Assembly: GCF_947166265.1 (NCBI RefSeq)
Contig: NZ_CAMVDO010000021.1
Span: 1-51,097 of the forward strand
DNA: 51,097 bases
DNA from: an uncultured Fibrobacter sp.
Lineage (GTDB): Bacteria > Fibrobacterota > Fibrobacteria > Fibrobacterales > Fibrobacteraceae
Direction of reading: 5' to 3'
A program made the position numbers and the translations under genes. The notes under the pieces were generated by a model that was not told the origin of the DNA, did not search any database, and saw only the letters and a list, made by a program, of their open reading frames with translations. This document shows positions 16,155 to 36,802 of this stretch, piece after piece (positions within the stretch are counted from its first letter, which is position 1; every line of letters begins with the position of its first letter).

Positions 16155-19100
16155 ATGATGAAGACTGTAAAATACATATCGACAATGCTTTTGGCTATGG
16201 CCTCCCTTGCCATGGCACAGACGACTATGCCCACGCCGGAAAACCCGGCGACGGGTATCTGGATCCAGCAGGTGGGCGATATCGTACCCCACGCCTCGAC
16301 CAAGGCGACCTTGTACTATACCAAGTACGAACAGAACGACCGTGTCAAGAGCATTAGCTACCAGTACAACGGGGCGGGCTACCTGCTCATGAAACCCTCG
16401 GACCGTAAGACGCTTTGCACCAAGGAGGATTTCTATGAGGCCGATGGCCAAAGGTATTACCTCAAGGGTGCCGATGGCATTGTGCATCACCCCGATGGAA
16501 GCCTCTTGGTGGCAGGGCAGGGCCCGTATGTTCATAAGGTGAGGAAAGACGGTAAGGAAACCGGTAAGGGCTGTATGGAAAAGACAGCAGGCATTAAGCC
16601 CAATGCTCGTGGTATATGGCATTTGATGATGGACCCGACGGGCGACTGGCTGTGGGGTGCCGACATTCCCGGTGCATTGTACCGTTTTTCGACGAAGGAT
16701 GATCCGAAAAAGAGTAACTTCGCGGATACGGGCTACGTGGTTCACCTGAGACATGATAACTCAGATCGCGACAAGACCAATAAGCTTTCGACCATTATTT
16801 GGGATGGTGAAGGCAGGGCGTTTTTCACGTATTCCGAAGCGGCTGGTGGTGGTTGCGAAAAGTATAACTACAACACCAGAAACTATGAGTCCTGTAATCA
16901 GGCCGAAAAGGATAAGGCTAGGTCAAAGGCTTATTTTGGCGTATTTACCGATACGTCGTGGGCAACCGTGAATAGCAGCAACATCGGTAGACTTGGCGGT
17001 TCCATTGGCGACCGCGTGATTGACACTCTAAAAATGAAAATCCTGATCGACTCCCTGGAAGGTGCGCATGGTGGTGCGTATGACCCGTATTCCAAGTCCA
17101 TCTTTGTTTTCGGTGGCGCCCGCATTGTCCAGATTAAGCCCCGCATCAAGGGAGGCGAGGTGACGGCCGAGGAAGTCGCCTCGATAGACCTTCGTAAGTA
17201 TTTCTTCTTGGAAACGGTCGAGAATATGCCTGAACCCAGAACCCCGCAGGTGGGCTGGCGCCTTGACCAGGGAACGACCGATGGGTACGGTCATATCTTT
17301 GTTGCGGCCAATACGGGACACATGGTGTTTGTGGACTTTGCGGCAAACCCGGACAAGTTGATTAACGATAACGTATTGGTTCATGTCCAGTATATCGACA
17401 AGTATCTAGATGACTTGGCTCCGCTTTCGGGCGTGGGCGTAATTCGCGAAGGCGGACATACGGGACACGATACCGAAATTTCGAGTGACTCTTACAGCTC
17501 GTCGATGGTCGAATATGTCGAGTCTTCGAGCAGTGCGAAGTCGAGCAGCAGCTTGACATCTAGTAGCAGTGGCAATGGAAAGAGCAGTTCCAGCGGCAAT
17601 ACTGAACTCGGCTCTAGCTCCAGTGGTAACGGCGATAATCCAGGCTCTAGCTCCAGTGGTAACGGCGATAATCCAGGTTCCAGCTCCAGTGGCAATGGCG
17701 ACAATCCCGGTTCTAGCTCCAGTGGCAATGGCGACAATCCAGGTTCCAGCTCTAGCGGCGAGGGTGGCGACAATCCCGGTTCCAGCTCTAGCGGCGAGGG
17801 TGGCGACAATCCTGGCTCCAGCTCCAGTGGCGAGGGCGGTGACAATCCTGGCTCCAGCTCCAGTGGCGAGGGCGGTGACAATCCTGGTTCTAGCTCCAGC
17901 GGCGAAGGTGACGATTCCGGCTCCAGCTCGTCGAGGGGTAGCGGCAGCGGCGAGGATATCGAAGACAATTCCTCTTCGAGCAGGTACGGCGGTTCCGGTG
18001 AAGATATCGAGGATAAGTCCAGTTCTTCGAGGCGTTACTATGGTGCCGACGACTTTGACATAGACGACGGCTCCGGTTATGACGATTACCCGACGGTAGA
18101 AAGCTTTGAAAAGGGTGACTCCATTGTTGCAAAGACGGTGGTCCTGGAACCGACGGATCTTGATTCGAGCAACCCGAATGTGGTAGTTATCAACGGCAAC
18201 AAGTACCTGTTGGTCAATGATCCGAGTGGAATCCCGATGGATTTGCGTTTCAACTCCGGACTGGATTCTGCAAAGGTGGGCGATGTTGTCGCGATCACCC
18301 TCAACAAGAAAAAGGTGAAGGAATATTTCGGTTCGCCGGATTCCCTGACGGTTGTTTCGAAAACGGCGGTGCAGCTGGTAGACCCGTCGACCGGTGAAAA
18401 GACGGATCAGCTTGTCATCAACCCCGATGGTAGCGTGACGATCTTTGTGACGTCTGACCGCGTGGTGGACGGCGGCTCTATCAAGGTCTACGGCGGAAAC
18501 CAGATGGTGGTTATCGACAATATCAACTTCTACGACCCGATTCCCAATAGCCGCGTCGGCTACATCAAGGATACCGACGGTGACATGGAATTCGACTACG
18601 TGGAAATCCTCTTGACCGATACCTTGTCGAGCAACTACTATCTCGATGATGTTAAGCTGGTGGTGGGTGAAAAGACGCTCACCTGCGTGAACCCCAAGCT
18701 CAACACGGCCCGTGACCGAATCTTGGTCGATGTACGTGACCTTGTACTCCCCGGTGTGGGCGAGTTCCCGAAAGACGCCAAGGCGCTCATCTACTATAGC
18801 GACAAGACCGGCTCGGGAGCCTCTTACGTCCGCGAATCCTCGCTGATTGAAATGGGGAGCAACGTTATCAAGGATGCCTTTGCCATTCGTAACACGAAGG
18901 GCCTGGATTCCCTGTTCCTGCTGTTTAATATCGACCTGATGCCGGTGGATGTGACCTCTCCCGACATGTTGGTGATGCTCAAGCAAGAAGCCAAACGCTA
19001 CGGTATCAACGATGTTTCCAAGGTCTATATGCCGGCAAAGGACATCGTGATTCTGGTGGGTAAGGATTTCAAGCTCAGGGGAAACGACAGGGATAGCGTT

Positions 19101-20432
19101 TCGCTTTATCCGAACGTCTCTTTCGAAAACCTCCAGTATATTACCTCCGACGAATACGACCGCGAAATCAGGGTCAAGGTGATGGATCGTCTGCCTTCGG
19201 CCAAGAACGTGGAATACTGGGATGACGACGGCGACGGTGTTCTGGATAGGATCGTGACGGTATTCGATCGAAAACTCACCAGTGCCGATATCGATGAAAC
19301 CCTGTACATGTCTTATCCGTGGTACAGTTTCCGCGGTATGATGGTTCAGTTGCAGGCTCAACCTTCTAGCTTGACGATTGATCCGGCGGATTCGACCCGA
19401 GTCATCTGGAATGTGACTTACCCGACACGTTTGGCCACGGGAGTTACGAGCATCAGCGAAAAGTTGCCGCAGGCGACCGTTTACACGTATTATTCGATCT
19501 TTAACGAAACCTTCGTGAGCGAAGAGCCCGTTCCGCTGGTTGACCGTATGCCGCCGATTGTGACGAGTGCGACGCTCGATTACGGCAAGAAGGCCGACAC
19601 GTTGCTGGTGACCTTCTCCGAACCGATTCTCACCAAGGATCTCAACGGGTCTGACTATTTCTCCTATATCCACGGAAAGGATACCATCGAGCTAAAACCG
19701 ACCCGTATCGACTGGTCGAATGACGGTCTTACTGCAAAGCTGGTGTTCGACGGAAGCAAGGGAACGATCATGCCGGGAGATTCCCTGTTGATCCATCGCG
19801 GCGCGGTCGATGCCATCAAGGATAACTACGGCAATGTCGCCGGCGAAAATCCGCAGGCGGTCATTATTGGCGGCCTCCTGAACCATCTGGTGGAATCGAC
19901 CAATATGGGTAGTTTCGATATCGATGACGGCACAAAGGACGAAGAAGGCTATACGCTCCAGACGGTAAGCTCGGTGAATTTGCGCTACGTCAAGAGTTCT
20001 ACGACGAAGGAAGACCTGGAACGAGACGGTAAGCTCGGGCAACTGGTGCAGCTGGGCGAACGCTTTGTCCCGCAGCTCCTGGATGGCGCCCAGGTTTCTG
20101 CGGACGGTTCTTTCGACCCGTCGGTGCTCGATTCCCTGAAGCCCGAAGATGTGTACATCTCGTTTATCGTGAACTACTTCGATCACCTGGGACAGTACGT
20201 GAACGACACGACCATTACGGTGCCGTGTAATAGCCCGAAATTTGGCGAAAACTGCCTTGAAACCGACAAGAAGGTCTTTGTGAACTGGAACTTCAAGGAT
20301 CACAAGGGTCGTTTTGTGGGAACGGGTATCTATAGCGTTCAGTTCAAGATGATTGTCCGCTACAAGAACAAGAAGATTGAAGAGGAAATCAAGGACAAGT
20401 GGGGCGTTCGTCGCAAGAAAATGAAGAAGTAG
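16155..20432 (+). CDS. Giant exported protein with Ser/Gly repeat linker and basic C-terminal tail
   Basis: A 1,425-residue exported protein starting at ATG 16155 with GAGG upstream. The signal peptide (STMLLAMASLAMA) leads to an N-terminal region of about 430 residues with propeller-like WLWGADIPGALY and HIFVAANTG strands. A low-complexity linker of about 160 residues follows, built of N-P-G-S-S-S-S-G units. The C-terminal 800 residues are homologous to the preceding protein: DTDGDMEFDY and DDDGDGVLDR Asp loops, a VTFSEPILTKDL Ig-like motif, and a FlgD-like end (VNWNFKDHKGRFVGTGIY). The tail KWGVRRKKMKK parallels RWGITAKKR of its neighbour and resembles the basic terminal domain described on Fibrobacter surface enzymes. 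Role unknown; probably cell-surface. Confidence 0.78.
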   Translation: MMKTVKYISTMLLAMASLAMAQTTMPTPENPATGIWIQQVGDIVPHASTKATLYYTKYEQNDRVKSISYQYNGAGYLLMKPSDRKTLCTKEDFYEADGQRYYLKGADGIVHHPDGSLLVAGQGPYVHKVRKDGKETGKGCMEKTAGIKPNARGIWHLMMDPTGDWLWGADIPGALYRFSTKDDPKKSNFADTGYVVHLRHDNSDRDKTNKLSTIIWDGEGRAFFTYSEAAGGGCEKYNYNTRNYESCNQAEKDKARSKAYFGVFTDTSWATVNSSNIGRLGGSIGDRVIDTLKMKILIDSLEGAHGGAYDPYSKSIFVFGGARIVQIKPRIKGGEVTAEEVASIDLRKYFFLETVENMPEPRTPQVGWRLDQGTTDGYGHIFVAANTGHMVFVDFAANPDKLINDNVLVHVQYIDKYLDDLAPLSGVGVIREGGHTGHDTEISSDSYSSSMVEYVESSSSAKSSSSLTSSSSGNGKSSSSGNTELGSSSSGNGDNPGSSSSGNGDNPGSSSSGNGDNPGSSSSGNGDNPGSSSSGEGGDNPGSSSSGEGGDNPGSSSSGEGGDNPGSSSSGEGGDNPGSSSSGEGDDSGSSSSRGSGSGEDIEDNSSSSRYGGSGEDIEDKSSSSRRYYGADDFDIDDGSGYDDYPTVESFEKGDSIVAKTVVLEPTDLDSSNPNVVVINGNKYLLVNDPSGIPMDLRFNSGLDSAKVGDVVAITLNKKKVKEYFGSPDSLTVVSKTAVQLVDPSTGEKTDQLVINPDGSVTIFVTSDRVVDGGSIKVYGGNQMVVIDNINFYDPIPNSRVGYIKDTDGDMEFDYVEILLTDTLSSNYYLDDVKLVVGEKTLTCVNPKLNTARDRILVDVRDLVLPGVGEFPKDAKALIYYSDKTGSGASYVRESSLIEMGSNVIKDAFAIRNTKGLDSLFLLFNIDLMPVDVTSPDMLVMLKQEAKRYGINDVSKVYMPAKDIVILVGKDFKLRGNDRDSVSLYPNVSFENLQYITSDEYDREIRVKVMDRLPSAKNVEYWDDDGDGVLDRIVTVFDRKLTSADIDETLYMSYPWYSFRGMMVQLQAQPSSLTIDPADSTRVIWNVTYPTRLATGVTSISEKLPQATVYTYYSIFNETFVSEEPVPLVDRMPPIVTSATLDYGKKADTLLVTFSEPILTKDLNGSDYFSYIHGKDTIELKPTRIDWSNDGLTAKLVFDGSKGTIMPGDSLLIHRGAVDAIKDNYGNVAGENPQAVIIGGLLNHLVESTNMGSFDIDDGTKDEEGYTLQTVSSVNLRYVKSSTTKEDLERDGKLGQLVQLGERFVPQLLDGAQVSADGSFDPSVLDSLKPEDVYISFIVNYFDHLGQYVNDTTITVPCNSPKFGENCLETDKKVFVNWNFKDHKGRFVGTGIYSVQFKMIVRYKNKKIEEEIKDKWGVRRKKMKK
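17610..17930 (+). repeat. In-frame minisatellite encoding S4-G repeats
   Basis: About nine to ten tandem units of 33 or 36 bp encode GNGDNPGSSSS (four or so copies) then GEGGDNPGSSSS (five copies). Units are near-identical but use alternating codons, so copy number can change by slippage while the frame is kept. Confidence 0.9.
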
Positions 20433-20567: not shown

Positions 20568-21323
20568 TTAGAAATTGTCCGGACGGTCGAACATGTGCGT
20601 CACGAACTCGGTCACGAGCGTCACGTAGGCATCGTCGCTGAAAAGCGGCTTTTGCAGCAGGTCGATGGTTTCTTGGGTGAGGGAGCCTGTCCTTGCAAGT
20701 TCCGCGCCGCCGGCCTTGTACTTGTTGCGGAGCATTTTCAGGCGGCGCGGGCCTCCGCGGTGGTCGAGGGCGCGCATCTGCGGGCAGGCGATGAGCGTGT
20801 AGCCCTCGTGCCCGAGAATAATGTCGAACTGCTTGCGGATCGGTTCGTAGACTACGTCGATGTCCATCCAGGCGCAGCTCGAAAGCAGGATGATTTTCTG
20901 CCCTTCTTTCTGGAACTGGAGCCCGTGCAGGTTCGAATTCAGCGCGTTCACGCCGTCTTTCAGCTTCTGGCCCATGTAGGGGTGCACCATTCCCACGATG
21001 CGGTCCATCAGGACCTTCATCTGTCCCGGCACACCGAACAGGTACAGGGGAAAGCTCCAGATGACAATGTCGGCGTTCGTGAGCTTTTCGCGCACCCAGG
21101 GCACGTCGTCATCCTTCATGAAGCAGCTGCCGTCTTCGCGTCCCCAGCAACTGAGGCAGCCGCGGCAGGGCTTAATGTTCAGACGGTCGATAAAAAGGTA
21201 TTCGCTCTCGAAGTCTCCGTTTTCTTCAAGCCCTTCCACGAAGGCCTTGGTTGGAATCAGCGTTCCGCTGCGTTCGTTCTTGGGGCTTGCGACCATGATG
21301 AGGATTTTCTTTTTATCTGCCAT
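20568..21323 (-). CDS. Flavodoxin-fold NAD(P)H-dependent FMN reductase
   Basis: Probable FMN-binding oxidoreductase, 251 residues. The N-terminus (KKILIMVASPKNERSGT) has the flavodoxin-like phosphate loop; FPLYLFGVPGQMKVLMDR is the second typical segment of iron-sulphur flavoproteins and NADPH-dependent FMN reductases. The motif PCRGCLSCWGREDGSC (residues 52-67) is a Cys cluster as in iron-sulphur flavoproteins. The C-terminal third is less typical. I start at ATG 21323 (MADKKK); no clear Shine-Dalgarno sequence is visible, and an in-frame ATG at 21356 is possible. It is divergent from the next operon. Confidence 0.82.
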   Translation of the reverse strand: MADKKKILIMVASPKNERSGTLIPTKAFVEGLEENGDFESEYLFIDRLNIKPCRGCLSCWGREDGSCFMKDDDVPWVREKLTNADIVIWSFPLYLFGVPGQMKVLMDRIVGMVHPYMGQKLKDGVNALNSNLHGLQFQKEGQKIILLSSCAWMDIDVVYEPIRKQFDIILGHEGYTLIACPQMRALDHRGGPRRLKMLRNKYKAGGAELARTGSLTQETIDLLQKPLFSDDAYVTLVTEFVTHMFDRPDNF

Positions 21324-21363
21324 GCGTACAAATTTAGAAAAATAATTTTTTTTCATTAATCGT

Positions 21364-24100: not shown

Positions 24101-25288
24101 ATGTCCGATAATATTGATTTGAAGTCTGATCTAGAGAAAATTTGCACCGAAATTACATCGGCAAATGCCGTAGATAAACAGAGGCCTTTTTCGAGTCTCT
24201 GGAAAAAATATGTCTTTGAAGTTGGGTATGATGAATTTGCTGAAAAAACTTTGATTGACGGGTATTTATGCAATAGCATTAATTACTGGAAAGATGTCTG
24301 GAAGAAGCAGAAACAGGGAGATATTTTTTTCGAGAAACTTCTGTCTGGTAAAAGAATACAAAGTAAAGAACATGGGACTTTGGTTGTTCTGCTGGGAACA
24401 CTTTCTATTTGTATTAACGAAATTGATACGGCGGGTAAATTTATTAGTCAGGTTTTGCAACTATTGAGCAACGTTCTTCCTGAAAGGTCTGAATTAAATT
24501 TGGATGAATTTGAAGAACGATTTTTAAAAAGAGTCGAAGTACGGCCTGTTGATGAACTGAATTTAAAGGTCAAGGCTAAAAATAAAAAAGTGCTGGCTTT
24601 TTTCAAAGAAGTAAGGAAACGCTATTCAGATGAAAATTTGAAAGGAGATGCGGTGGTAAATCGAGCAAAGCTTGATTTCGTGATTTCGCTGATGTCTGGA
24701 TCGAAGGAAAAAAAGAAAAAAGAATCCTTACAGGAAGAAAAAACTGTGGAAAAAAATAATCCTGATGCTAGTGCGAAAGATCAGGATCTAACTAAAGAAC
24801 TTCAAGAAATTAAAAATAAATATAGTCTTTTAATCGATGCAAAAAAGCGGCTAGAAAGGGAATTGGCTGGTTGTCGTGATTTCTTTCAGCAAAGTAGAGC
24901 TGAATGGAAAAAAGAAAGAGAGGATTATGAAAAACAAAAAGTAGCTCTTCAGAATTCTCTAAATAATCGTAGGCTAGAGGTGGAAGAAAAGAAAGCTGAA
25001 ATCCAGGCTTTAAGAATTCAAACAGAGCAAATGTCTGCGGAACTTGAACAAAAGGAAGCCGTCATTCAGGATAAGAATGAGAGTATCCGGATCCTTAAGG
25101 ACTCACGGGATGATAGGTATGAAAAAAAAATGAAGTCTATTCAAGATAGGCTTGCTGTGTATTATAGCGCATTCCAAGATTGTCGTGATAAACAAATGAG
25201 TGATGTCTTGGGGCGTGTAATGCGTAACTATTTGGAAAATGTTTTTGAAATAATTATGGACAATAAAATGGATTTGAATCAACAATAA
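24101..25288 (+). CDS. Coiled-coil protein heading the Hsp70/Z1 operon
   Basis: A 395-residue protein starting at ATG 24101 (GAGG about 10 nt upstream). The N-terminal 210 residues look globular and helical, with no motif I recognise. A charged linker is followed by a long Lys/Glu-rich coiled coil (about residues 225-350) and a short helical end (SDVLGRVMRNYLENVFEIIMDN). Position directly before an Hsp70-like ATPase invites comparison with GrpE-type exchange factors, but no GrpE motif is visible. The gene is distinctly AT-richer than the genes before 24 kb. It is separated from the next frame by 9 nt, so the two are an operon. Confidence 0.72.
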   Translation: MSDNIDLKSDLEKICTEITSANAVDKQRPFSSLWKKYVFEVGYDEFAEKTLIDGYLCNSINYWKDVWKKQKQGDIFFEKLLSGKRIQSKEHGTLVVLLGTLSICINEIDTAGKFISQVLQLLSNVLPERSELNLDEFEERFLKRVEVRPVDELNLKVKAKNKKVLAFFKEVRKRYSDENLKGDAVVNRAKLDFVISLMSGSKEKKKKESLQEEKTVEKNNPDASAKDQDLTKELQEIKNKYSLLIDAKKRLERELAGCRDFFQQSRAEWKKEREDYEKQKVALQNSLNNRRLEVEEKKAEIQALRIQTEQMSAELEQKEAVIQDKNESIRILKDSRDDRYEKKMKSIQDRLAVYYSAFQDCRDKQMSDVLGRVMRNYLENVFEIIMDNKMDLNQQ

Positions 25289-25297
25289 GGAGAAAAA

Positions 25298-26761
25298 ATG
25301 TCTGAATACATAGGAATTGATTTTGGGACAACCCGAAGCACGATCGTCATTTACAAGGACTCCCAAGATACTAGGGGCATTAGAGACGGAATAACACAAT
25401 TGGGAAATCCCATTCTTTCTATTGCCGCCGTAAATAAGACTAATGGCAAGTGCTATTATGGAATAGATGCCAAAAGTAAAATTAGTGAGGAATATGACTA
25501 TATACCCTCCCTAAAAGATTTATTGTCCGACAAGTACAAGTATGACCGTAATTATGGCGGCGTTGCTGTTACTAGGGATTCGATTCTCAAAGGCTATTTT
25601 GAACACATAAAAACTATCGTTGAGCGACCTGGCGAGTTAGAAATAGTCATGGCGGTTCCCAATGATTTCCCGATGGTTCGCAGGTGTATCTTGCGTTCTG
25701 CGGCAGAGGCTGCTGGATTTAAAATAAAAACTTTTATAACTGAGCCAATTGCGGCATTCTTTGCGAGCTATTCGCATTTGACAGGTTATAACGAGTCTGC
25801 AATTTTAAGAAATTATGAAAATGTCGCGATTTTTGACTGGGGTGGTGGTACCCTGGATGTGACCGTGATGCAACGTTCAGGTAGAATTGTGAAAGAACTG
25901 GCTAAAAAACGCATGGATTGTGCCGGTAATGCAATTGATGAGCGTGTTGCTCGGTGTGTTCATCAATGGATTTCTGAGAAAACAGGGAAAAATAAATCGT
26001 TTGAAGATATGACCTTAAAGACTCAGAACCGAATGAAAATATTTGTAGAAGGAGCTAAAATTAAGCTCAACGGTCAACAGAATGTTGAATCAGTGATGGT
26101 CTCTCATGGTGATTACGATGATTATGGTGAAGTTGAGCAGGAAATCACAAAAGAATCATTCAATAAATGTATAGAATACATTATCGATGCCGCTATAGAA
26201 ACATTAAGAAAAACTATTAATGAATCAAAATTGGGTATTGGTGGCATTGATAAGATTCTCCTAGTGGGGGGGAGTAGTAAACTCCTCCTTCTGCAGAAAA
26301 AAATGAAGGCTGAGTTTGGCGACAAACTGCTGATATCATCAGGCGATTCCGATTGGGGTGTTTCTATTGGCGCCGCCTTGCTTTCTTCTGCACCTGGCGA
26401 TTTTATTGTGAATCAGGATGTTTCGCTTCGCCTAAACGATGGCGATGTTTACCCGCTTATAAAGAAGGAAGAACGAATTTCAAAATATCAAAAAAATCCT
26501 CAGCCTTTTTACTTTGGAAAAGTAGATGATTCCGCAAAGGCTGTTTTTACATTTACCGGATCAGAAGATATTGACAAAAGTCCGGAGAAGTATCTTGGAA
26601 TTCAGACTGCGAATATATGGGATGAGTTGATTCAGCTTGAAGTTTCGATAGATGAAAATATGATTGTAAATATTGTTGCTTCATGTCAAGGCTTGCCCGA
26701 TGGCGCTCGGTGTTGGTCTTATGCAAATTTGTCTTGCTGTTACGAACTTCCGAATGACTAA
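25298..26761 (+). CDS. Hsp70/DnaK-like ATPase with shortened C-terminus
   Basis: Actin-fold ATPase of the Hsp70 superfamily, 487 residues. Phosphate-1 (YIGIDFGTTRSTIVIY, residues 4-19), the TEPIAA connector (148-153), phosphate-2 (FDWGGGTLDVTV, 179-190) and adenosine motif (ILLVGGSSK, about 313-321) are all present, so ATP binding should be intact. The region after the ATPase domain is only about 110-120 residues against 230-250 in DnaK, and I see no canonical substrate-binding beta-sandwich plus lid or acidic C-terminal tail. It has an AAGGAG site 9 nt after the preceding gene. This is not the housekeeping dnaK: sequence and AT-rich neighbours suggest a specialised, mobile paralogue. Confidence 0.85.
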   Translation: MSEYIGIDFGTTRSTIVIYKDSQDTRGIRDGITQLGNPILSIAAVNKTNGKCYYGIDAKSKISEEYDYIPSLKDLLSDKYKYDRNYGGVAVTRDSILKGYFEHIKTIVERPGELEIVMAVPNDFPMVRRCILRSAAEAAGFKIKTFITEPIAAFFASYSHLTGYNESAILRNYENVAIFDWGGGTLDVTVMQRSGRIVKELAKKRMDCAGNAIDERVARCVHQWISEKTGKNKSFEDMTLKTQNRMKIFVEGAKIKLNGQQNVESVMVSHGDYDDYGEVEQEITKESFNKCIEYIIDAAIETLRKTINESKLGIGGIDKILLVGGSSKLLLLQKKMKAEFGDKLLISSGDSDWGVSIGAALLSSAPGDFIVNQDVSLRLNDGDVYPLIKKEERISKYQKNPQPFYFGKVDDSAKAVFTFTGSEDIDKSPEKYLGIQTANIWDELIQLEVSIDENMIVNIVASCQGLPDGARCWSYANLSCCYELPND

Positions 26762-26772
26762 GGGAGGGTAAT

Positions 26773-27645
26773 ATGTCAAATGTTTGTCGTAGAAGCAATG
26801 TGTTCCCTCGAGAACAGAAAAGTATTTGGCGTGATCAGCTTTTTTTGAGCAAGATAAATGATGCCAGATTGTTGCAAAAAATTGAAGATGTCTTTAAAAA
26901 GGATAAATCAGGCGAAAATATAAAGGCTTTTTTTTCTGAAAGCCAAATTTCAATAATGCATTCTCCTGTAACATGTGCTTTTGCCCAGGGGATTACTACA
27001 TATGGACTTGTAGGTAAAAATCGAAAATTGGTTTGTAGATGCCCTTATGCGGCAGATGAGGCAAATCGAGTACGATGTGGCGTTGATTGGGATGTTTGTC
27101 ATGGACTTTATGAAGCTCCTGTAATGGTAGATTTGGGTCCTGAACCCACTGTTGATGTTGCTCAACCTGCTCCGGAGCCCGCCCCCATACCTCCCGCACC
27201 AGATTCTGATGAACATGGTGAGTCAGAACCGGATCAAAAGCCCAGTGTGGTTGAAAAACCGAAGGGAGACGACCTGCCCAAGGATATACCACCGGAAAAA
27301 ACTCCCGAAGATTCAGTACAAAATGTTGTCTTGCCACAACCGAGAATCGCATATCCTGACGCTTTGTCCTTGTCTTGTAGCGGCTATGACGTCAAGGGCG
27401 AAAAGGTTAGAGACGGCGGTTACGAAATACGAATTTCGTCTGGTGGTGTTTTTATTGCCAATGTCAATTCTTTCGGCGTCGTTTTTGGGAAACATCCCAA
27501 GTTGGTAATTGAAGAATTACCTGACAAGGGCTCTTTGGTTTCTTTCGATAACTTTGAAAAAATGAGTATTTGCTTACAACAGGAACCTACCCCAGTCGTT
27601 GATATTGCTATAGGCTTTACCAAGATATCTGTTTGTGTGAAATAA
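26773..27645 (+). CDS. Cys-containing protein with Pro/Glu-rich linker
   Basis: A 290-residue protein starting at ATG 26773 after GGGAGGG, 11 nt after the Hsp70-like gene. The N-terminal domain (about 1-115) ends in a Cys cluster, VCRCPYAADEANRVRCGVDW..C, which could bind zinc. A Pro/Glu/Asp-rich linker (about 118-185) joins it to a beta-rich C-terminal domain (about 190-290, YEIRISSGGVFIANV). The layout suggests an adaptor with two binding domains. I do not recognise either domain. Tight spacing on both sides places it in the same transcript as the Hsp70-like and Z1 genes. Confidence 0.68.
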   Translation: MSNVCRRSNVFPREQKSIWRDQLFLSKINDARLLQKIEDVFKKDKSGENIKAFFSESQISIMHSPVTCAFAQGITTYGLVGKNRKLVCRCPYAADEANRVRCGVDWDVCHGLYEAPVMVDLGPEPTVDVAQPAPEPAPIPPAPDSDEHGESEPDQKPSVVEKPKGDDLPKDIPPEKTPEDSVQNVVLPQPRIAYPDALSLSCSGYDVKGEKVRDGGYEIRISSGGVFIANVNSFGVVFGKHPKLVIEELPDKGSLVSFDNFEKMSICLQQEPTPVVDIAIGFTKISVCVK

Positions 27646-27658
27646 TATTGGAGAAAAA

Positions 27659-30037
27659 ATGAAGTCCATCTTTACATCTGACGAACAAAAAGAGAAAGCT
27701 GAAATACTTAAAGCGGAATTCAACGAAAAGCTAAAGCAACTTGTTGGGTCCAATTACTGTGTTGAAATTCGGAAAATTGTTCCGCCACCTGTTAAAGATT
27801 CGGATGGTTTCGCAAAAATATACCCCCATTTTTGCGAAACCATTCCGTATAGCAAAGAATTACAAGAATGTATTGAAGGTACAATTGCAAAACTTTATGA
27901 ATCAGGATTGTCCCCTTCCGAAGCAAAGAAACCTGGATTGCTGCTAGGAAAAATCCAGTCGGGAAAGACTCGTGCGTTTGTCGGATGTATGGCGCGTGCT
28001 TTTGACAATGGAGTGGATGCCTGTATTATATTGACAAAAGGAACAAACGCTCTTGTTGATCAGACCGTGAAACGTATGAAATACGATTTCAGAGAGTGTA
28101 AAAGGGATGCCCTTCCTAAAATTTTCCCGACGGTATCAATCTATGATATAATGAAAAAACGTGTCCCGTTAAGGAAGTCCCTGATCAATGGCGAAAAGAA
28201 TGTTTATATTGCAAAGAAGCAAGATGAAAACATGCAGATTCTTTTGGATGTTTTCTTAAACTCCGAACTTAGAGAAAAGAATATCCTTATTATTGACGAT
28301 GAAGCCGACTTTGTGTCAAGAGCTTTTATGAAGAAGAAAAGCGATGTCAAAGAAGGGGTTATCGCTTCACAGATTGACAAACTGATAGAAGGACTTCCGA
28401 ATTGTCGTTATTTGCAGGTAACGGCAACGCCGTATTCATTATATCTGCAGCCGGATAATTACGTAGATGTTTCCAATGGTAGGGTCGTTCCGTTTCGCCC
28501 GAGATTTACTGCCCTTGTGCCGATACATGACAAATATGTTGGATCAAAGCAGTATTTTGTTGAATCCCAAGACGACCAATCAATGTATAGTAGCCTGTAC
28601 CATGAGGTTGCACCTGACTGCATTGCTTGCCTAACTACTGATAAGAAAGTTCACGGACATTTCATTAAAAGAGGCATATTGGTCAAAAATGTAGAGAATT
28701 CTCCCAAAATAAAGGATTTGCGCTGGTCTGTTATGCATTACTTTGTTGCATCGGCCATACGTGAAATACAGGAAGAAAATCTTGGGCATGATTCTTATCA
28801 TACAAGCTATGTCATGCATGTTGGTACAGATAAGCTGGACCATGCTTGGGAAGCTGATCTGATAGAAACGTTGCTGAATTCTTGGGCTGATTCCTTGGCA
28901 ACACCCGGTGCTGACATAGCTGGATTTAATACATTGTTTGATGAAATATATGAGAACCTTGAAAAATCTATTTCTTTGGGACGTGCACATGCATCGACTG
29001 CTTCTGACGAAAAAATTTTAACCATTCCTGACAAAGATGTCGTGTATACAAGAGTCCTGGAGTTGATTCAAAACGAAGAATACAATGTCCAATTAGTCAA
29101 TTCTGACCAGAATGTACAAAGTTTGCTAGATGATAATGGACAACTTGAATTAACTCATAAACTAAACTTGTTTATTGGAGCCTTTGTTCTTGATCGTGGC
29201 ATTACCATTAACCATTTATTGGTTTTTTTTTATGGAAGAGAACCTCAAACCAAACAACAGGCTACTGTTTTGCAACATTGCCGAATGTACGGAAATCGTT
29301 CTCTGAATGACATGGCAGTCACCCGTTTGTATTCGCAAAGAACTCTGTACAATGTCCTAAAAAAAGTCAATGAAATGGACGATATGATGAGGGAACGCTT
29401 TGCGGCGACAATAAACGATCCCAAAGCTGATCCGAGTATTGAATTTGTTATTTGCGATAAGAGTAATGGAATTATTCCCTGTAATATGAATAGTGTTGCT
29501 CTTTCGAAGGGGGTTGTTTGGAAGGCTGGAAAATTTGTATTACCCTCTGGGCAACAGACGATCAATTCAGTGGCGAGGTTGAGAGAACTTGTTAGACAAA
29601 TTGGACACTATTTTGCGGGGAAGACTGAGCGCGTGTGCTTTGAAATTGATGCGAAGGATGCTATAGCTATGGTAAATTTGGCTAAAGAACAGTTTGTTTA
29701 TAGTTCAAAATATGAAAATAAGGATTGTGAGTGGGACGGCTTGGATATGATTACGTTAATTGACCGCCTTAAAGATTCCAATGGAAAGATTCTTGTTTAT
29801 ACAAGAACTGGTTGCAATACTAGTCGTGTGAGATCCGATGGCAATGGCTTTATTGATGCTCCGTTAGATGGTCAAAAGGAAAGCCCTTATTTGAAAGCGC
29901 AAGCAACAAATGTACCCGTTCTGGCGATGCAATTGAATGAAGGCAAAAAGGTGCAAGGTTGGTTGGGAGAGCCGTTCTATTGGCCGGTGCTGTGTTTGCC
30001 GCAATCCATGGACAGTATTATGTATTGCCCTCGTTAA
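27659..30037 (+). CDS. Z1-domain SF2-like ATPase
   Basis: A 792-residue ATPase of the Z1 family (PF10593). Walker A GKIQSGKT (residues 97-104), Walker B/DEAD-like IIDDEADFVS (211-220), and VTATPYS (254-260) are in the usual order. A motif VI-like QHCRMYGNR with the following LY element appears in the second half, so both helicase lobes seem present. Z1 domains occur in ATP-dependent restriction systems (CglI, NgoAVII) and in the Mza defence system. Here the partners differ: a coiled-coil protein, Hsp70-like ATPase and Cys/Pro-rich protein, with 13 nt to the preceding gene and a GGAGAAA site. A strong terminator follows. No nuclease motif is clear to me in the C-terminal part. Confidence 0.85.
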   Translation: MKSIFTSDEQKEKAEILKAEFNEKLKQLVGSNYCVEIRKIVPPPVKDSDGFAKIYPHFCETIPYSKELQECIEGTIAKLYESGLSPSEAKKPGLLLGKIQSGKTRAFVGCMARAFDNGVDACIILTKGTNALVDQTVKRMKYDFRECKRDALPKIFPTVSIYDIMKKRVPLRKSLINGEKNVYIAKKQDENMQILLDVFLNSELREKNILIIDDEADFVSRAFMKKKSDVKEGVIASQIDKLIEGLPNCRYLQVTATPYSLYLQPDNYVDVSNGRVVPFRPRFTALVPIHDKYVGSKQYFVESQDDQSMYSSLYHEVAPDCIACLTTDKKVHGHFIKRGILVKNVENSPKIKDLRWSVMHYFVASAIREIQEENLGHDSYHTSYVMHVGTDKLDHAWEADLIETLLNSWADSLATPGADIAGFNTLFDEIYENLEKSISLGRAHASTASDEKILTIPDKDVVYTRVLELIQNEEYNVQLVNSDQNVQSLLDDNGQLELTHKLNLFIGAFVLDRGITINHLLVFFYGREPQTKQQATVLQHCRMYGNRSLNDMAVTRLYSQRTLYNVLKKVNEMDDMMRERFAATINDPKADPSIEFVICDKSNGIIPCNMNSVALSKGVVWKAGKFVLPSGQQTINSVARLRELVRQIGHYFAGKTERVCFEIDAKDAIAMVNLAKEQFVYSSKYENKDCEWDGLDMITLIDRLKDSNGKILVYTRTGCNTSRVRSDGNGFIDAPLDGQKESPYLKAQATNVPVLAMQLNEGKKVQGWLGEPFYWPVLCLPQSMDSIMYCPR

Positions 30038-30049
30038 AACTTAAAAAAG

Positions 30050-30071
30050 CGGACTTCAAAGTCCGTTTTTT
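30050..30071 (+). terminator. Terminator closing the Hsp70/Z1 operon
   Basis: A 6-bp stem CGGACT/AGTCCG with tetraloop TCAA and two T-runs. It separates the four-gene operon from the UvrD-like gene. Confidence 0.9.
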
Positions 30072-30189: not shown

Positions 30190-32838
30190 ATGAAAATCCT
30201 TGTACTTGAAAACGTTATTCGCTGTACGAATCTTTTTGGTGAGTATGGTAAGCATGCCGTATCTAAGGAAGTTTTGGCACAAATATTTGCGGAACTTCAA
30301 AATCTTGTGAACTTAGAACGAAATGGCGGCATCCAAAGCTTGAAAGATTACCTCAATATGAATAATGGTAAATCGATGAAGGGCGGCGGAGAACACGTTT
30401 GGAAATATCAGCTTAATGATGGGGATAGGATTCTTTATACTTGGGGGAAATACCTGTCATATTTACAAGATGAAGATAAAGATTCTCTTGTATTACTTGC
30501 TTATGCGGTTCATGATAAGCAAGGATTGGCTGGACAAAAGCTCCCGGCAGAGCAACATTATGAAGATGCTCGCGAAATATTGAAAAAACGTTCTGAATTT
30601 ACAGAGGCTGACATCAAGTCTCAGGAAGATTATAATGCTTTCTGCGATATTGTATTTGATGTTCCGTATCAGGCTAATCATGTAATTTATGTTGTGAGTG
30701 ACGAAAATCTTGCAACGCTTGATTTGAGAAACCTTGATTTTAAGTTGTCGAAGAAACAGAGCGAAATAATTGAAAATTATCAGAAAAAACAGCAGCCTAC
30801 TTTGATTTTGGGCGGTGCGGGAACGGGTAAGACCGTTCTTGCTGTGCATTTATTGAATGATTTCGCCTCAGAAAAGAAATGCGCTTATTTTACACAGTCG
30901 AAGGAATTGCTGAATTCTGTAGAAAATAAATACAAGTCTATTTGTGCTCATCCGGAAGGTGCAGATCCAGAATTTTGGGACATCAACGAATTTTGTCGCT
31001 CAGTTTTAGATGAAGGAAAATGGAGCCGTAAGAATTTTGTTGAAACCTCGCAATTTTTAAATGACTTCGTTGCAAACGATAAAAATGTTCAGCACGTATT
31101 GGAAAAGTATAGCCTTACTCCGATTGACTTGTGGACTGAAATTCGAGGGGTCATAAAGGGTGGTACAAAGTCCGATTGGACTAGAACGAAATTACTGGAT
31201 TCCACGAAATTAGCCCCTGAATACATAGAGCCTTTTAGAGTGCTGAATAGCAAAGGCTTGATTAAAAGGAACGATGCTGACAAAAGATTGTTTGAGCTAG
31301 ATCCGAAGTGGAAATCTATTGATTATGAACAATATGATTTGCCTGATGAAGCTACAGAATTTTTAAACTATTTGATTGAATACTTCGCTAGTTTTGACAC
31401 AAGCAAAACGGAAATGTCCTTTGATGACTACGAGACATTGAATGAAGAAGTCTCCATGGTTGAGCAGTATGCTCGTAAAGATATTTATTGCAAGTGCTAC
31501 GAAAAATACAAACAATGGCTGAGAGTTCGTGGGTTTTATGATGATAATGATTTGGCTTTAAATGCTATTGCAAAGCTGCATGAGGATTTTACAGGCCCGC
31601 AAAACGAACCTGTGGAAAAGATGTTTGATTTTGTCGTGGTAGATGAAATTCAGGATTATACGGAGTTGCAGATTTATTTGATTAGTCGGCTTGTCGACAG
31701 TAGGCGCCTTATTTTGGCGGGCGATAGTAAGCAAATCGTTAATCCGACCGTGTTTAATGAGCGCAAGTTGTGCCGATTGTTCCATGATGAAAATCAAAGA
31801 ATTGAATTGAAAACTGAATTCCTGACACAGAATTTTAGGTGTCAGAAAGAAGTTGTTGCTGTTGCTAATAGGATTGTGACCAAGCGTAGAGAAAAAATTG
31901 GTGCGCAAAAACATGATGTGGATGAAGATGGCTGTCGAGATGGCGAAAAGCCTTTGTGCTTGGCGTGGAATGAAAATAATGTAAAAAAAATGCTTGGGGA
32001 GTTGCTTAAATACCCCAGTGTCGCTTTGCTTGTTCCGAACGACAATGTTAGAAATCAGATAATAAATCTTTATGGTGAAGAAAAATATCGCAATGCTCAG
32101 AACTCGTTGATTTATACAATTGCAGAAATCAAGGGTATGGAGTATAGGTATGTTGTCTGCTGTAATGTCTTGAGTGCTTATGATTCCATGTGGAACGAAA
32201 TTATGGGCCAAAGAACAGCGAAAAAGACAAGGTATCGTTATTATTTCAATTTGTTCTATGTCTCGGTAACAAGGGCTCAGGAATTTCTGTGTGTCATGGA
32301 ACAGAATGAAAAGAGCCTGCTTTACTCGGATTTGAAATCGACTGAAGGTTTATTATGTTGCGAACAGTCCTTTGATGTCCGTAAACTATTCCTAGATCAG
32401 TTGAGGAATGAAGATACGGACTGGTATGCTGATGCTGAGGATAATGAAGATGCAGGGAACTATCTCCGTGCATTGGAAAGCTATCGGAAAGCGAATGCGG
32501 ATAATGAGGATATATGGCGTTGTATGGCCAAGTTGGCGGAACAGGAAAGAGATTATGACAAGTGCGTAAAGTACTTGTTGATTTTGGATCCAGATGATAA
32601 GAAAGTTAATCAGATTGATAATCTTAAGAAGTATATGGAAGAAGTAGAAGAATCCTCTGAATTGAGAAAAATTGGGGAAGTCTATTTGCAACCGGGAATC
32701 TTCTACAAATCAGGATTGGACTTGAATGTTGCTCTGAAGAGTGTTTACGGAGATTCTGATTCTCAGGAATTTATGACGGCTCTAAATGAGTTTGTCAGAA
32801 AAATGAATTCGTATATGGGTTCATTGATTAACGTTTAA
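30190..32838 (+). CDS. UvrD/PcrA-like SF1 helicase with RelE-like N-terminus and TPR-like C-terminus
   Basis: An 882-residue protein. Residues 1-115 resemble the RelE/ParE fold seen in front of some phage-defence helicases (WKYQLNDGDRILYTWGK, LVLLAYAVHDKQ). Walker A is LGGAGTGKT (207-215), Walker B VVVDEIQDYTE (about 480), then LAGDSKQIV, a QNFR motif and a late YVSVTRAQEFL block (motif VI), so all SF1A motifs are present. The C-terminal 150 residues are helical and TPR-like (LESYRKANADNEDIW). It has its own 110-bp upstream region after a terminator. Next gene starts 18 nt later. Probably a separate defence-linked unit. A missing exonuclease domain argues against AddA/RecB. Confidence 0.82.
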   Translation: MKILVLENVIRCTNLFGEYGKHAVSKEVLAQIFAELQNLVNLERNGGIQSLKDYLNMNNGKSMKGGGEHVWKYQLNDGDRILYTWGKYLSYLQDEDKDSLVLLAYAVHDKQGLAGQKLPAEQHYEDAREILKKRSEFTEADIKSQEDYNAFCDIVFDVPYQANHVIYVVSDENLATLDLRNLDFKLSKKQSEIIENYQKKQQPTLILGGAGTGKTVLAVHLLNDFASEKKCAYFTQSKELLNSVENKYKSICAHPEGADPEFWDINEFCRSVLDEGKWSRKNFVETSQFLNDFVANDKNVQHVLEKYSLTPIDLWTEIRGVIKGGTKSDWTRTKLLDSTKLAPEYIEPFRVLNSKGLIKRNDADKRLFELDPKWKSIDYEQYDLPDEATEFLNYLIEYFASFDTSKTEMSFDDYETLNEEVSMVEQYARKDIYCKCYEKYKQWLRVRGFYDDNDLALNAIAKLHEDFTGPQNEPVEKMFDFVVVDEIQDYTELQIYLISRLVDSRRLILAGDSKQIVNPTVFNERKLCRLFHDENQRIELKTEFLTQNFRCQKEVVAVANRIVTKRREKIGAQKHDVDEDGCRDGEKPLCLAWNENNVKKMLGELLKYPSVALLVPNDNVRNQIINLYGEEKYRNAQNSLIYTIAEIKGMEYRYVVCCNVLSAYDSMWNEIMGQRTAKKTRYRYYFNLFYVSVTRAQEFLCVMEQNEKSLLYSDLKSTEGLLCCEQSFDVRKLFLDQLRNEDTDWYADAEDNEDAGNYLRALESYRKANADNEDIWRCMAKLAEQERDYDKCVKYLLILDPDDKKVNQIDNLKKYMEEVEESSELRKIGEVYLQPGIFYKSGLDLNVALKSVYGDSDSQEFMTALNEFVRKMNSYMGSLINV

Positions 32839-32855: not shown

Positions 32856-33386
32856 ATGCCTAATATTGAAATTGAAAATTTGATTAAGTCCTTTTCTGAA
32901 TCGGTAAAGCTGGTTCAGCAGGTCAAAGCGCAGATGGACGAAATCCAAGACCAGATTTCTCCAGAAATCAAGAATGTCCATTCAAAATCACAGCAATTGC
33001 TGAACGCAATTGGAGCGAATGCGGAAGAGGTATTCAAGAAGCTGGATGAACGCGAAGAACTGGTGGATGAAAAATGCAAGGCCGCTCTTGAAAAAATAGA
33101 TCAAAAAATGAGTGAAATAGGAAAGGTGCAAGCACCATCTTCTGTAGTCACCAAACCGGCTGTTGTGACTCCGAAAACATCAGATAACAAGGTTGAAGGT
33201 TGCTCGTATAAACTGATTGATGGAAAAGTTGAAATACGATTTGAACGGATCCCCTCTGTTGCCGTTCGAAATCGTTTAAAAGAACATAAATTCGGTTGGT
33301 CTAAGGCAAAGGCCGCATGGATTGGTAATGCTGATAGACATCCCGAAAATGTGACCTTGGCGAAGGAATTGGCCGGGGAAATTTGA
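32856..33386 (+). CDS. Coiled-coil protein with C-terminal LK-xx-GFxWS-type domain
   Basis: A 176-residue protein with AAAGGAAAG upstream. Residues 10-90 form a coiled coil; a short linker leads to a C-terminal module (VEIRFERIPSVAVRNRLKEH, then FGWSKAKAAWIGN). That module matches the small domain found at the ends of polyvalent phage and ICE proteins and some DUF3560-type proteins. It is co-directional with, and probably coupled to, the UvrD-like helicase, and may act as its DNA-binding or oligomerisation partner. Confidence 0.68.
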   Translation: MPNIEIENLIKSFSESVKLVQQVKAQMDEIQDQISPEIKNVHSKSQQLLNAIGANAEEVFKKLDEREELVDEKCKAALEKIDQKMSEIGKVQAPSSVVTKPAVVTPKTSDNKVEGCSYKLIDGKVEIRFERIPSVAVRNRLKEHKFGWSKAKAAWIGNADRHPENVTLAKELAGEI

Positions 33387-33400: not shown

Positions 33401-36400
33401 CTAGACCTTCTGCACGCCAATCACAACTTCGTCTTCTTTTTTGGATTCTTCACGTTGGGCTCTGCGATTGTCTTTAGATTTTTGTAGCATTTCACGTAAG
33501 TAGCCTAATCTCTCGTACAATCCGTCAAGGTCTCTTCCTTCGCAGTTGGCTATAATCTTGAGGTCATAGCGCGGTATAGTGCGCCAATTATCCAAATCGT
33601 CTTGGATAATCTGTAGGAATTCGTAAATGTCGGATCCAGGAGATGCGACGCTCAGTGCTTCTACAATGACTTTCTTTGCCTTGGCGTAGGCGTCGTTTTT
33701 GGGCATGGTACTGGTGTTCCCTTGCTCAATGCTCTTGGGGTCAAGTTCAGAAAGTTCTTTATAGGCGTCCCAGAAATCCTGGTTGATTGGTAGAGCATCC
33801 TCGTTGACTTTGCATTTTAGGCGCATCGCCAAATCGATTGCGTGAATTAACTTGCGCTCGCCAGCTTCGTTCTGGAAAACACTCCAAAGGAGAGATCCCT
33901 TTTTCTTGAGAACATAAAAGCCGACGTCAGCATCTTCTTTTGCTGCCGAAGCACTCTTGATTCGGTTAGGGAGAGAATTCACCCTTTCGGCGATTTCTGG
34001 GTGGTCTTTTTGAATGTTTGCCCATTCAAGTTTAATTTGGGTGAGCGGGGACATTTCATCAGCGTCTTCAGGGTCGGCGTTCACCATTTCGTATAGGCGA
34101 GATGGCTTAGGATTGTCTTCGTCAGCGGCTAGTACCTGGGCGTCTTCTCCAAGAATCTTGTGAATCATGGCCATCTTGTTTGCAGCGATTTCCCTAGAAT
34201 GAATAACATCACTACCTTGCTCTGTCGGGAAATAGTTGAAGATGTACAGTTTGTCAAATACTTTTTGACCGATACGATTAATTCGTCCAATTCGCTGGAT
34301 AACTCTCGTCGGATTCCAGGGAATGTCGTAGTTAATGACGAGTCCTGCACGGCTAAGGTTCAATCCTTCGCTAAAACGGTCCGAAACTAGCAAAACATCA
34401 AAATTATTTTTTTGCTTTTCTCGCGATGCGTCAAAGTTGTCAAGAACTTCATCGCTTGCGGATTCTGGTGCTAAAACTCGTTCGGCGTAATCTGATTTGT
34501 CGAAGTATCTCTTGACGTGGTCTATGGTGTCGCGGTATTCCGAGAATATGATGACTTTACGACCGGTTACATTGTCCAAGTCCTTGTGTTTGCAATTGAG
34601 GACGCTCCTGACGATATTTATGAGCTGTAACGCCTTTGGGTCTTCCTTCAATAGGTTCAGGTAATCGATTTCCTTAAGGATGTTTTCGAATGTTCCGATA
34701 TCCTTGTCGAGATCGGCAAAGAACTTTTTCTTGTCGAAACACTTGTTCGCGACATCGTAAATTTCATCTTTGTCGCGGCTAGTGCGGGCTTGTTCGGTAC
34801 GGGCAATTTCTTCAAAGAAATTGTCAAATTCCGCAGGGGTAGCATCATTTTCGCAAAGAGTCGTGAAACGATCTAAGAATTTGCGGCTTTGAAAAACAAT
34901 TCCCTTGGTGATGGCAATTTGTTTTACATGTCGATAATACTGGATGGCGTTGGCGACAGTTTTTGCGAATGCTCCGAAAGAACTTTCAAAACGGCGAACT
35001 AACAAACGCCGCATAAACTTGTACATGCCTTCCTGCTGTACGTTATCGCTTTGTTCGTCGTTGGAACTTGCTGTATTGTATGCGTATGGCCTGTAGGCGG
35101 CACCCGTAAATGTTGTGTCGCTTAAGTATTCATTAATGACACGGTCATAGAAGTTGTTTTGTTCTGGGGTGAGTTCAAAGAATTGCTCCTTGGGTGGAAC
35201 GACCTTTGACATCTCCTTTACATCTTTTGCGTAATCCGGGTTCGCTTTGATATCGAGTCTGTTACGGCGGATCGTGACGGGAGCGATAATCTCGCGGACC
35301 TCGTTAGAAATTTTTTGAATGATGTATAATAGTCTTCTACGGATTTTTGCAACTTTATTGGGATCTTTAATATCAACAATGTCTAAAGGTTCATCGCCAA
35401 AAAGAATTTTCCATTTTCGCATGCATTCGTCAAAGTATTTTCCTTCTTTATCAAAAAGATGGGCGAGAAGGTAGCTTGCCGCTACGAATGCGACTGTAAG
35501 ATCCTGGAATTTTTGTTGTAAATCTCCGCCTGCAATTAAGTCTGAATTCCTTAAGTCGGTAAACAACTGCAACAGAGCGGCAAAATCTGCAGGACTATTG
35601 TTAAACGGAGTTGCTGTTAGTAGGATAACATTTCGACCGTTGCAAATACGCCAGAGCTTGGAGTAACTGTCGGTTTCTTGGTTGCGAAAACGGTGAGCTT
35701 CGTCAATAATGATGGTTCCGTAATCGCGTTCTTTGACCTCGTCCCAGAATCCTTCAAAGTCGGATTCAATTCTTCCTAATGATTCTGTGTACCATCCGCG
35801 TTGTGAAAGTTTGAATTTGTTGAGATACATCTCCCAACCGGATTTAGAATCTCCTCTTAAGTTCGGAGGACAAATGACAAGGCCGTTCCCTGTAAGTAAA
35901 TTGCCTAACAGGCTTGCAATAATGGACTTGCCAAGGCCAACCACATCGGCGATGATAACGCCATTCTGCTTATTTTCATTCCTGTTAAGAATGTTTAATG
36001 CGGCAAGTACGGCGTCGCTCTGGTATTTAAAATTATTAAATCCCGCATCCTTCAGTATGCGGTCAATGCGTTCTTCGAGATTCTTGTCGGTAATGTTTTC
36101 TTTTTCGGCAATGGTTTTGACCACTTTGGCGTAGGCCTCAAATGGTGTTACTAGAGCAATGACCGACTCGTTTACCAGAATCTTGATAATGCGTTCCTTG
36201 GTATCGTCGTCCGTCAAAGGAATGGCGTCATCCCACCACTTGTCAAAAAGGATGCTTGCACGGTCGTAATCAAAGCTGTTGATATCTACATTGACTTCAT
36301 TTTGCTTTTCAAGGGCGCTCCAGGTGAGGTTTGCAGAACCGGTGAGCCAATCCACCTCGTCATTTTTCATGGTGAACAGGTACATTTTGGCGTGGTTGGG

Positions 36401-36802
36401 TTCGCGGGTCTTGCGGATTTCGAGGCGACCTTCGCGGAGCAAATCAACAAACAACTTGTTGCGTTCAAAAAATGTTTCGTCATCGACACCTTTGCTAGCA
36501 AATACATTGTGCAGTGAATCGAGGAATGCGTCCTTGTATTCCTGCGAGACCATGCCGCTATGGGTCTTTGCAATTTCGATAATTTTACCCATGTGCTCTT
36601 CGGCTTCCATCCCCACAAGCACCTTGAGCTTGATATCGGGATTCTCTTTTATCGCATCGTGAAGAGGGCCTATACCCGAAAAATAGAAGTAACCGACAAG
36701 CGCCCGCAATTCCTTGGATTTGGAAATGAGCGATTGCAATCTTTCTTTGAAGGAGGTTTTTTGGTCAGAGTCTTTTTGTGTGGTGAGCAAAAATTGTGGC
36801 AT
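33401..36802 (-). CDS. PLD-nuclease/SNF2-type helicase of a restriction-like system
   Basis: An 1,133-residue fusion. The N-terminal domain (about 20-190) has the phospholipase D signature: HAK (137-139) and GSANLT (155-160), so it may cut DNA. The SNF2/SF2 core follows: ADVVGLGKS (285-293, Walker A), IIIDEAHRFRN (364-374), LLTATPFNN (394-402) and, near residue 830, the second-lobe VSDRFSEGLNLSRA and QRIGRINRIGQ motifs. Such PLD-helicases are typical of restriction and DISARM-like loci; this one is fused, unlike DrmD. GAGGAAA precedes the ATG. It lies 129 nt downstream of the methyltransferase gene on the same strand, with a small winged-helix frame in between. Confidence 0.9.
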   Translation of the reverse strand: MPQFLLTTQKDSDQKTSFKERLQSLISKSKELRALVGYFYFSGIGPLHDAIKENPDIKLKVLVGMEAEEHMGKIIEIAKTHSGMVSQEYKDAFLDSLHNVFASKGVDDETFFERNKLFVDLLREGRLEIRKTREPNHAKMYLFTMKNDEVDWLTGSANLTWSALEKQNEVNVDINSFDYDRASILFDKWWDDAIPLTDDDTKERIIKILVNESVIALVTPFEAYAKVVKTIAEKENITDKNLEERIDRILKDAGFNNFKYQSDAVLAALNILNRNENKQNGVIIADVVGLGKSIIASLLGNLLTGNGLVICPPNLRGDSKSGWEMYLNKFKLSQRGWYTESLGRIESDFEGFWDEVKERDYGTIIIDEAHRFRNQETDSYSKLWRICNGRNVILLTATPFNNSPADFAALLQLFTDLRNSDLIAGGDLQQKFQDLTVAFVAASYLLAHLFDKEGKYFDECMRKWKILFGDEPLDIVDIKDPNKVAKIRRRLLYIIQKISNEVREIIAPVTIRRNRLDIKANPDYAKDVKEMSKVVPPKEQFFELTPEQNNFYDRVINEYLSDTTFTGAAYRPYAYNTASSNDEQSDNVQQEGMYKFMRRLLVRRFESSFGAFAKTVANAIQYYRHVKQIAITKGIVFQSRKFLDRFTTLCENDATPAEFDNFFEEIARTEQARTSRDKDEIYDVANKCFDKKKFFADLDKDIGTFENILKEIDYLNLLKEDPKALQLINIVRSVLNCKHKDLDNVTGRKVIIFSEYRDTIDHVKRYFDKSDYAERVLAPESASDEVLDNFDASREKQKNNFDVLLVSDRFSEGLNLSRAGLVINYDIPWNPTRVIQRIGRINRIGQKVFDKLYIFNYFPTEQGSDVIHSREIAANKMAMIHKILGEDAQVLAADEDNPKPSRLYEMVNADPEDADEMSPLTQIKLEWANIQKDHPEIAERVNSLPNRIKSASAAKEDADVGFYVLKKKGSLLWSVFQNEAGERKLIHAIDLAMRLKCKVNEDALPINQDFWDAYKELSELDPKSIEQGNTSTMPKNDAYAKAKKVIVEALSVASPGSDIYEFLQIIQDDLDNWRTIPRYDLKIIANCEGRDLDGLYERLGYLREMLQKSKDNRRAQREESKKEDEVVIGVQKV

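Follow-up and report, generated by a model that had tools for sequence, protein, structure and literature searches.

A conserved gene cassette with a lidless Hsp70 precedes a Z1-domain ATPase in a putative defence operon of Fibrobacter

The contig NZ_CAMVDO010000021.1 of an uncultured Fibrobacter sp. (assembly GCF_947166265.1), analyzed here over its whole length of 51,097 nucleotides (nt) and termed the window, carries an operon that joins an Hsp70-type ATPase to a Z1-domain ATPase. The operon consists of four co-directional open reading frames on the forward strand. The first (positions 24101–25288) encodes a 395 amino acid (aa) coiled-coil protein (CC), for which the earliest possible start is a TTG codon at position 24074. 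It is followed by a 487 aa lidless Hsp70 of a defence type (25298–26761; Pfam HSP70, E-value = 1.4e-25), a 290 aa Cys/Pro-rich protein (CP) that was recognized with a profile of relatives and is a putative adaptor (26773–27645), and a 792 aa Z1-domain ATPase of superfamily 2 (SF2) (27659–30037; Pfam Z1, E-value = 1.6e-17). The intergenic gaps are 9, 11 and 13 nt, and GGAG or GGGAGGG is found directly 5′ of the start codons of the Hsp70, CP and Z1 genes. An intrinsic terminator, a hairpin followed by a T run, is present on the same strand at positions 30044–30071 (−14.2 kcal/mol, z = −4.97) and none of the shuffled sequences was equally stable. An initial annotation of this DNA had proposed a four-gene operon in the order CC-Hsp70-CP-Z1 with gaps of 9–13 nt, good ribosome-binding sites, a strong terminator and a Z1 ATPase paired with an ATPase of the Hsp70 fold, and the open reading frame calls, Pfam matches and signals agree with it on each of these points. 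As the annotation also stated, no nuclease or methyltransferase is recognized within the four genes.

Neither CC nor CP displays a Pfam match above cut-off, and no PADLOC defence model is matched by CC, Hsp70 or CP. The Z1 protein is matched by the generic PADLOC model Helicase_II (E-value = 4e-41) and weakly by the model for MzaC. The expectation that no named system has this composition holds for both PADLOC and NCBIfam, which show no named-system match.

The first three genes form a cassette that is conserved elsewhere. The order CC-Hsp70-Cys-domain is common to the window and six other loci, L100, L101, L102, L103, L104 and L108; in L104 the contig begins within the CC gene, which was recognized by eye. 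At the window locus the three genes are adjacent and in this order and the Hsp70 belongs to a clade that is not DnaK, which is how the cassette is defined here. Conservation of all four genes together, on which the initial annotation depended, is not seen; the conserved part is CC-Hsp70-Cys-domain and the motor that accompanies it varies. The Cys domain forms part of a fusion protein with a UvrD helicase in L100, L102 and L108, and drmA follows directly in all three. The L100 DrmA scores 972 against a cut-off of 950 for the NCBIfam DISARM_DrmAS model, the L102 DrmB scores 514 against a cut-off of 240 for DrmB_fam, and the L108 DrmA is 44% identical to both its L100 and L102 counterparts. A C5-methyltransferase gene is found upstream in L100, and the last gene of L108 encodes a NERD nuclease domain together with a helicase domain. 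L101 instead encodes a UvrD helicase along with a PLD nuclease and a PAPS-reductase-like protein. The motor is thus exchanged between loci that carry the cassette.

Partial or more distant forms of the cassette are also present. L105 and L106 have the Hsp70 and the Cys domain only; a conserved multi-gene neighbourhood surrounds this pair, and the Hsp70 active site is partly altered (for example, Y replaces T11 and S replaces D187 in L106). The plasmid locus L023 has the order CC-Hsp70-X near genes for a helicase, a GIY-YIG nuclease and a methyltransferase. In two BREX operons, L083 (positions 6743–9806) and L107 (6224–9410), PglX and PglZ-BrxL flank a CC-Hsp70 pair that is more distantly related. 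No description of BREX operons with such a pair was found in the open-access literature, nor was one of the CC-Hsp70-Cys-domain cassette; this covers few preprints and no subscription papers, so that a prior description is possible.

The CP sequence displays an N-terminal Cys domain (CRC...C...C) at about aa positions 1–115, a Pro-rich linker at about 120–190 and a beta-rich C-terminal region. A profile of the Cys domain built without the window sequence gives 27.9 bits with CP (E-value = 8e-8), the best of 856 background proteins reaching 6.2 bits, and hhalign against the relatives gives an E-value of 1.8e-5. Residues in common with the relatives are an SN near the N-terminus, the CRC and two later cysteines. 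The adaptor-like role that had been suggested for CP is supported by the fusion of this domain to a UvrD helicase in the relatives. The C-terminal half of CP gives no signal with the C-terminal region of the UvrD fusions (−2.5 bits) and is not considered its homologue. The fold model of CP is poor (mean predicted local distance difference test, pLDDT, 49.5), too poor for a structure search.

The CC sequence has a helical N-terminal domain, a coiled coil and a conserved C-terminal helical segment. It is similar to the L108 CC (phmmer, 9e-9); its C-terminal segment scores 18.4 bits with the profile of relatives, where the best of 400 shuffles scores 7.4, and hhalign gives P = 2e-4. The alignments make it likely that CC is homologous to the CC proteins of the cassette. 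With the CC proteins of the BREX loci L083 and L107 it has no detectable similarity. A CC relative in the congener G136 (E-value = 4.6e-4) is taken to be a chance match, as it displays internal stops, overlaps another frame and has no Hsp70 nearby. Searches of plasmids with CC and CP gave no match.

The AlphaFold model of the Hsp70, computed from a 15-row alignment, has a mean pLDDT of 87 and a predicted template modelling score of 0.85. It displays a nucleotide-binding domain and a beta substrate domain that ends at aa position 487, with no helical lid. Foldseek searches with the model retrieve DnaK-type structures (DnaK, 3e-32), including an engineered DnaK without the alpha part of its substrate-binding domain. 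The nearest relatives are 476–493 aa long. The initial annotation described the C-terminal end as shortened, but in view of the complete two-domain model and the normal length in the family, the lidless state is a family feature and not a truncation. The active-site residues D8, T11, K73, E149, D180, T185 and D187 are conserved.

The closest Hsp70 is that of L108, on a viral contig (36% identity over 492 columns, E-value = 5e-88). Five relatives of full or nearly full length, with E-values of 1e-40 to 1e-60, are found in the phylum of a Clostridia metagenome-assembled genome (MAG; 398 genomes searched) and are those of L100–L104. The phyla of a Bacteroidales MAG (395 genomes; best 7e-23, at DnaK level) and of a Spartobacteria MAG (145 genomes) gave no close relative, both weak negatives from searches with no positive control. 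In a single-protein scan with the window Hsp70, viral contigs gave no match. The L100 Hsp70 as a query at 1e-27 retrieves mostly DnaK. In the tree the window Hsp70 is sister to that of L108 (support 98/96) within a clade of nine (100/99), and this clade joins one of BREX and plasmid sequences apart from DnaK (99/99); the long branch of the window Hsp70 (2.18) calls for caution. The viral contigs L109, L113 and L116 have Hsp70-like genes that adjoin phage lysozyme genes, and these form a separate clade nearer to DnaK.

The Hsp70 fold by itself would be compatible with a housekeeping or stress chaperone operon. However, the source genome carries a separate DnaK of its own, the tree places the window Hsp70 outside the DnaK group, a match at E ≤ 1e-24 is confined to the source genome among the 168 searched in its phylum, and the operon is within a low-GC island. 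Together with the missing lid in the model and the lack of a J-domain gene in the operon, these data do not place the protein among the DnaK/HscA cellular chaperones, and a housekeeping role is largely refuted already and highly improbable. The possibility that the gene is a normal chaperone paralogue, which would have undone the initial annotation, is likewise set aside by the tree.

The Z1 protein retains the helicase motifs GKIQSGKT (aa position 97), IIDDEAD (211), VTATPYS (254), DRGITI (512) and QHCRMYG (539). It has 25 clear relatives (22 on genome contigs and three on viral contigs) at 30–38% identity, nearly all of full length. No Hsp70, CC or CP relative is found at any of these 25 loci by BLAST at E ≤ 0.01, where several contigs are short (L055 is 3.4 kb, and L029 and L060 have almost no upstream sequence). 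The annotated neighbours include type I, type III, C5 and type IIG restriction-modification genes, and others are ordinary metabolic genes; the Z1 clade thus often appears as a single gene beside restriction-modification genes. Nor was a Z1 neighbour seen for any other member of the Hsp70 clade. An Hsp70-Z1 pair is therefore not supported as a conserved unit, and among the neighbourhoods examined it is seen at the window locus only.

Some observations weigh against a cassette-controlled motor at this locus. The adjacency of Hsp70 and Z1 is seen once only, and the Z1 gene could therefore be part of the operon and yet act independently of the cassette. None of the four proteins displays the HPD motif of a J-domain. 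The whole-length profile of CC is weak, 10.0 bits against a background of 5.9, which makes the homology of CC less secure than that of CP. The first observation leads to the rather improbable explanation that the genes are co-transcribed but uncoupled. In that case Z1 would be a defence ATPase that needs no partner, and the Hsp70 cassette upstream of it would serve another protein. Close Z1 relatives without the cassette, many of them single genes beside varied restriction-modification genes, and the single occurrence of the pairing would fit this explanation. However, Z1 follows CP at 13 nt, shares its terminator and has no promoter-sized gap 5′ of it, and in the relatives another SF2 motor, DrmA, occupies the corresponding place after the cassette.

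The reading preferred here, with a probability of about 0.55, is that the operon has an anti-phage or anti-mobile-element function in which the conserved CC-Hsp70-Cys-domain cassette controls an SF2 DNA translocase, both the antiviral function and the coupling being inferred. Control of a DNA motor is favoured over general folding since the same three genes are found directly ahead of different helicase motors or fused to them, and since three loci encode the Cys domain and a helicase as one polypeptide. The distribution suggests that bacteria reuse a chaperone-like module for control of different anti-phage DNA motors, and we infer that the Hsp70 acts as a gate or loader of such motors. CC may be a dedicated Hsp70 partner, either a scaffold or a factor resembling a nucleotide-exchange factor. 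Through ATP-driven changes between its nucleotide-binding and beta domains, the lidless Hsp70 would keep the motor inactive or else assemble it, either on the invading DNA or in response to a phage protein. The Cys-domain protein would bridge Hsp70 and motor, as a separate chain here and as a helicase fusion in the DISARM-like relatives. Once licensed, Z1 would translocate on DNA and either block phage replication directly or act with a nuclease encoded elsewhere. A broader version is tentative: the cassette may be a general exchangeable sensor and licensing module, in which the lidless Hsp70 detects a phage cue and switches on the motor with which it is paired, be it DrmAB, Z1 or (for the sister form) BREX. 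Such a cue might be, equally tentatively, a phage protein that is unfolded or in the course of assembly, or a complex of protein and DNA.

The operon has a GC content of 37–41%, as against 48–53% in the left flank, which agrees with its description as AT-rich. It is part of a low-GC block that spans about 24–41.5 kb of the window. In the congener G063, DNA matching window positions 20568–21339 and 47773–49677 is about 6.5 kb apart, as against 26.4 kb in the window, and the DNA between these shared flanks does not match the island. The island region is thus a variable insertion. Z1 matches in other genomes of the phylum are distant and partial (best 3e-16). These matches, the occurrence of the Hsp70 in a single genome of the phylum and the presence of a separate DnaK indicate that the operon was probably acquired horizontally.

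Downstream of the operon are a UvrD-type SF1 helicase gene (30190–32838, forward strand) and, as the next gene, one for a 176 aa coiled-coil protein (32856–33386, forward strand). The 185 aa N-terminal domain of this helicase resembles RelE-type toxins by eye and has no Pfam match. This tentative reading is reminiscent of ArmD of ARMADA II. The restriction-like pair reported next to the operon is confirmed as a PLD-SNF2 helicase (33401–36802), whose DrmD/DpdE-like matches fall short of the model cut-offs, and a type IIG-like Eco57I methyltransferase (36932–40513), which is PglX-like and is 6.9 kb from the operon; both are on the reverse strand. Relatives of the PLD-SNF2 helicase are near Z1 relatives in L050 and L063, and those of the methyltransferase in L076. 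All these genes and the operon might form one larger system with a second motor, a nuclease and self-marking. It would be consistent with this that genes for UvrD, PLD nucleases and methyltransferases also accompany the cassette or Z1 relatives at other loci, as would the extent of the low-GC block. Such a system is nevertheless unlikely, as the strong terminator and a 152 nt gap separate Z1 from the UvrD gene, the PLD-SNF2/methyltransferase pair is on the opposite strand, and the window UvrD has no match to the cassette UvrDs at 1e-3. Elsewhere in the window, positions 16155–20432 encode a 1425 aa protein with a long Ser/Gly/Asn-rich repeat (GDNPGSSSSG).

If cassette control of DNA motors is correct, a chaperone-type ATPase would be a control part common to several helicase-based defences, much like GHKL or AAA+ ATPases in other systems, and the timing of DISARM or BREX action could be tested by exchange or mutation of a single small cassette. 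Among the versions found, that with Z1 is the simplest, with four genes and no nuclease or methyltransferase, and is for this reason the most convenient for rebuilding in the laboratory.

Hsp70s in defence are already known from CoCoNuTs (PMC11090510) and from GAP1-N2 systems (PMC7159879). GAP1-N2 conflict systems have an Hsp70, sometimes without the substrate domain; however, they are GTPase-centred with DnaJ and GrpE and have no Z1 or helicase motor (PMC7159879). CoCoNuT Type III (CnuD/CnuCD) and McrB-Hsp70 fusions resemble the window operon in their Hsp70 nucleotide-binding and substrate-binding domains, coiled coils and predicted defence role. They differ in a McrBC GTPase core, a proposed targeting of RNA and a degenerate ATP site, and no McrB or McrC homologue is found in the operon, which in this respect does not match CnuD. 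As the CoCoNuT Hsp70-like domains are proposed to bind RNA (PMC11090510), the window Hsp70 might recognize RNA or ribosomes, and not a DNA motor, in a defence directed at RNA or translation. This is very improbable: the ATP site of the CoCoNuT domains is degenerate (PMC11090510) but the catalytic residues of the window Hsp70 are kept, no RNase or RNA-binding domain is recognized in the operon, and the partners of the cassette elsewhere are DNA-defence motors.

The concern that the operon might belong to an already named defence subtype is answered by comparison with Mza, CglI, BREX and DISARM, none of whose definitions it fits. Mza has a Z1 ATPase that adjoins another ATPase, but the window operon has no MutL-type ATPase or AIPR gene, and its Z1 protein scores 38.6 bits with the MzaC model, where the cut-off is 1500. 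The suggestion in the initial annotation that the Hsp70 stands where Mza has a GHKL ATPase thus survives as an analogy only. CglI and NgoAVII share the Z1-domain SF2 ATPase, and the CglI Z1 protein is a DNA-dependent ATPase required for and powering restriction (PMC4267653). However, the cognate PLD-B3 nuclease and C5 methyltransferase are missing from the operon, and the window Z1 is only about 26% identical to its gonococcal relative. The BREX loci L083 and L107 share the CC-Hsp70 pair, with an Hsp70 of the sister clade (99/99), but their Hsp70 is longer (611–622 aa), they have the BREX core genes and no separate Cys-domain gene is recognized after the Hsp70. PglZ, BrxC and PglX are absent from the window operon.

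The DISARM-like loci L100, L102 and L108 carry homologues of all three cassette genes, in unchanged order and with an SF2 motor after them; CC, Hsp70 and the Cys domain are thus accessory genes that the window locus shares with these loci and that do not define DISARM. They differ in having a DrmA(B) motor and a Cys domain fused to UvrD, whereas the window has Z1 and a separate CP, and some of them have methyltransferase and NERD-type nuclease-helicase genes nearby. DrmA and DrmB (DUF1998) are lacking in the window operon, which is therefore not DISARM, and no DrmA match is present in the source genome (~97% complete). Hsp70 is not mentioned in a 2025 survey of DrmA-type helicases (PMC12458937) and is not named in the DISARM and YprA-helicase literature that was examined. 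DrmAB is autoinhibited and is activated by DNA (PMC9142583). The DISARM nuclease DrmC appears non-essential (PMC9142583), so that the lack of a nuclease in the window operon does not exclude restriction. The best reading of the window locus is that Z1 replaces DrmAB.

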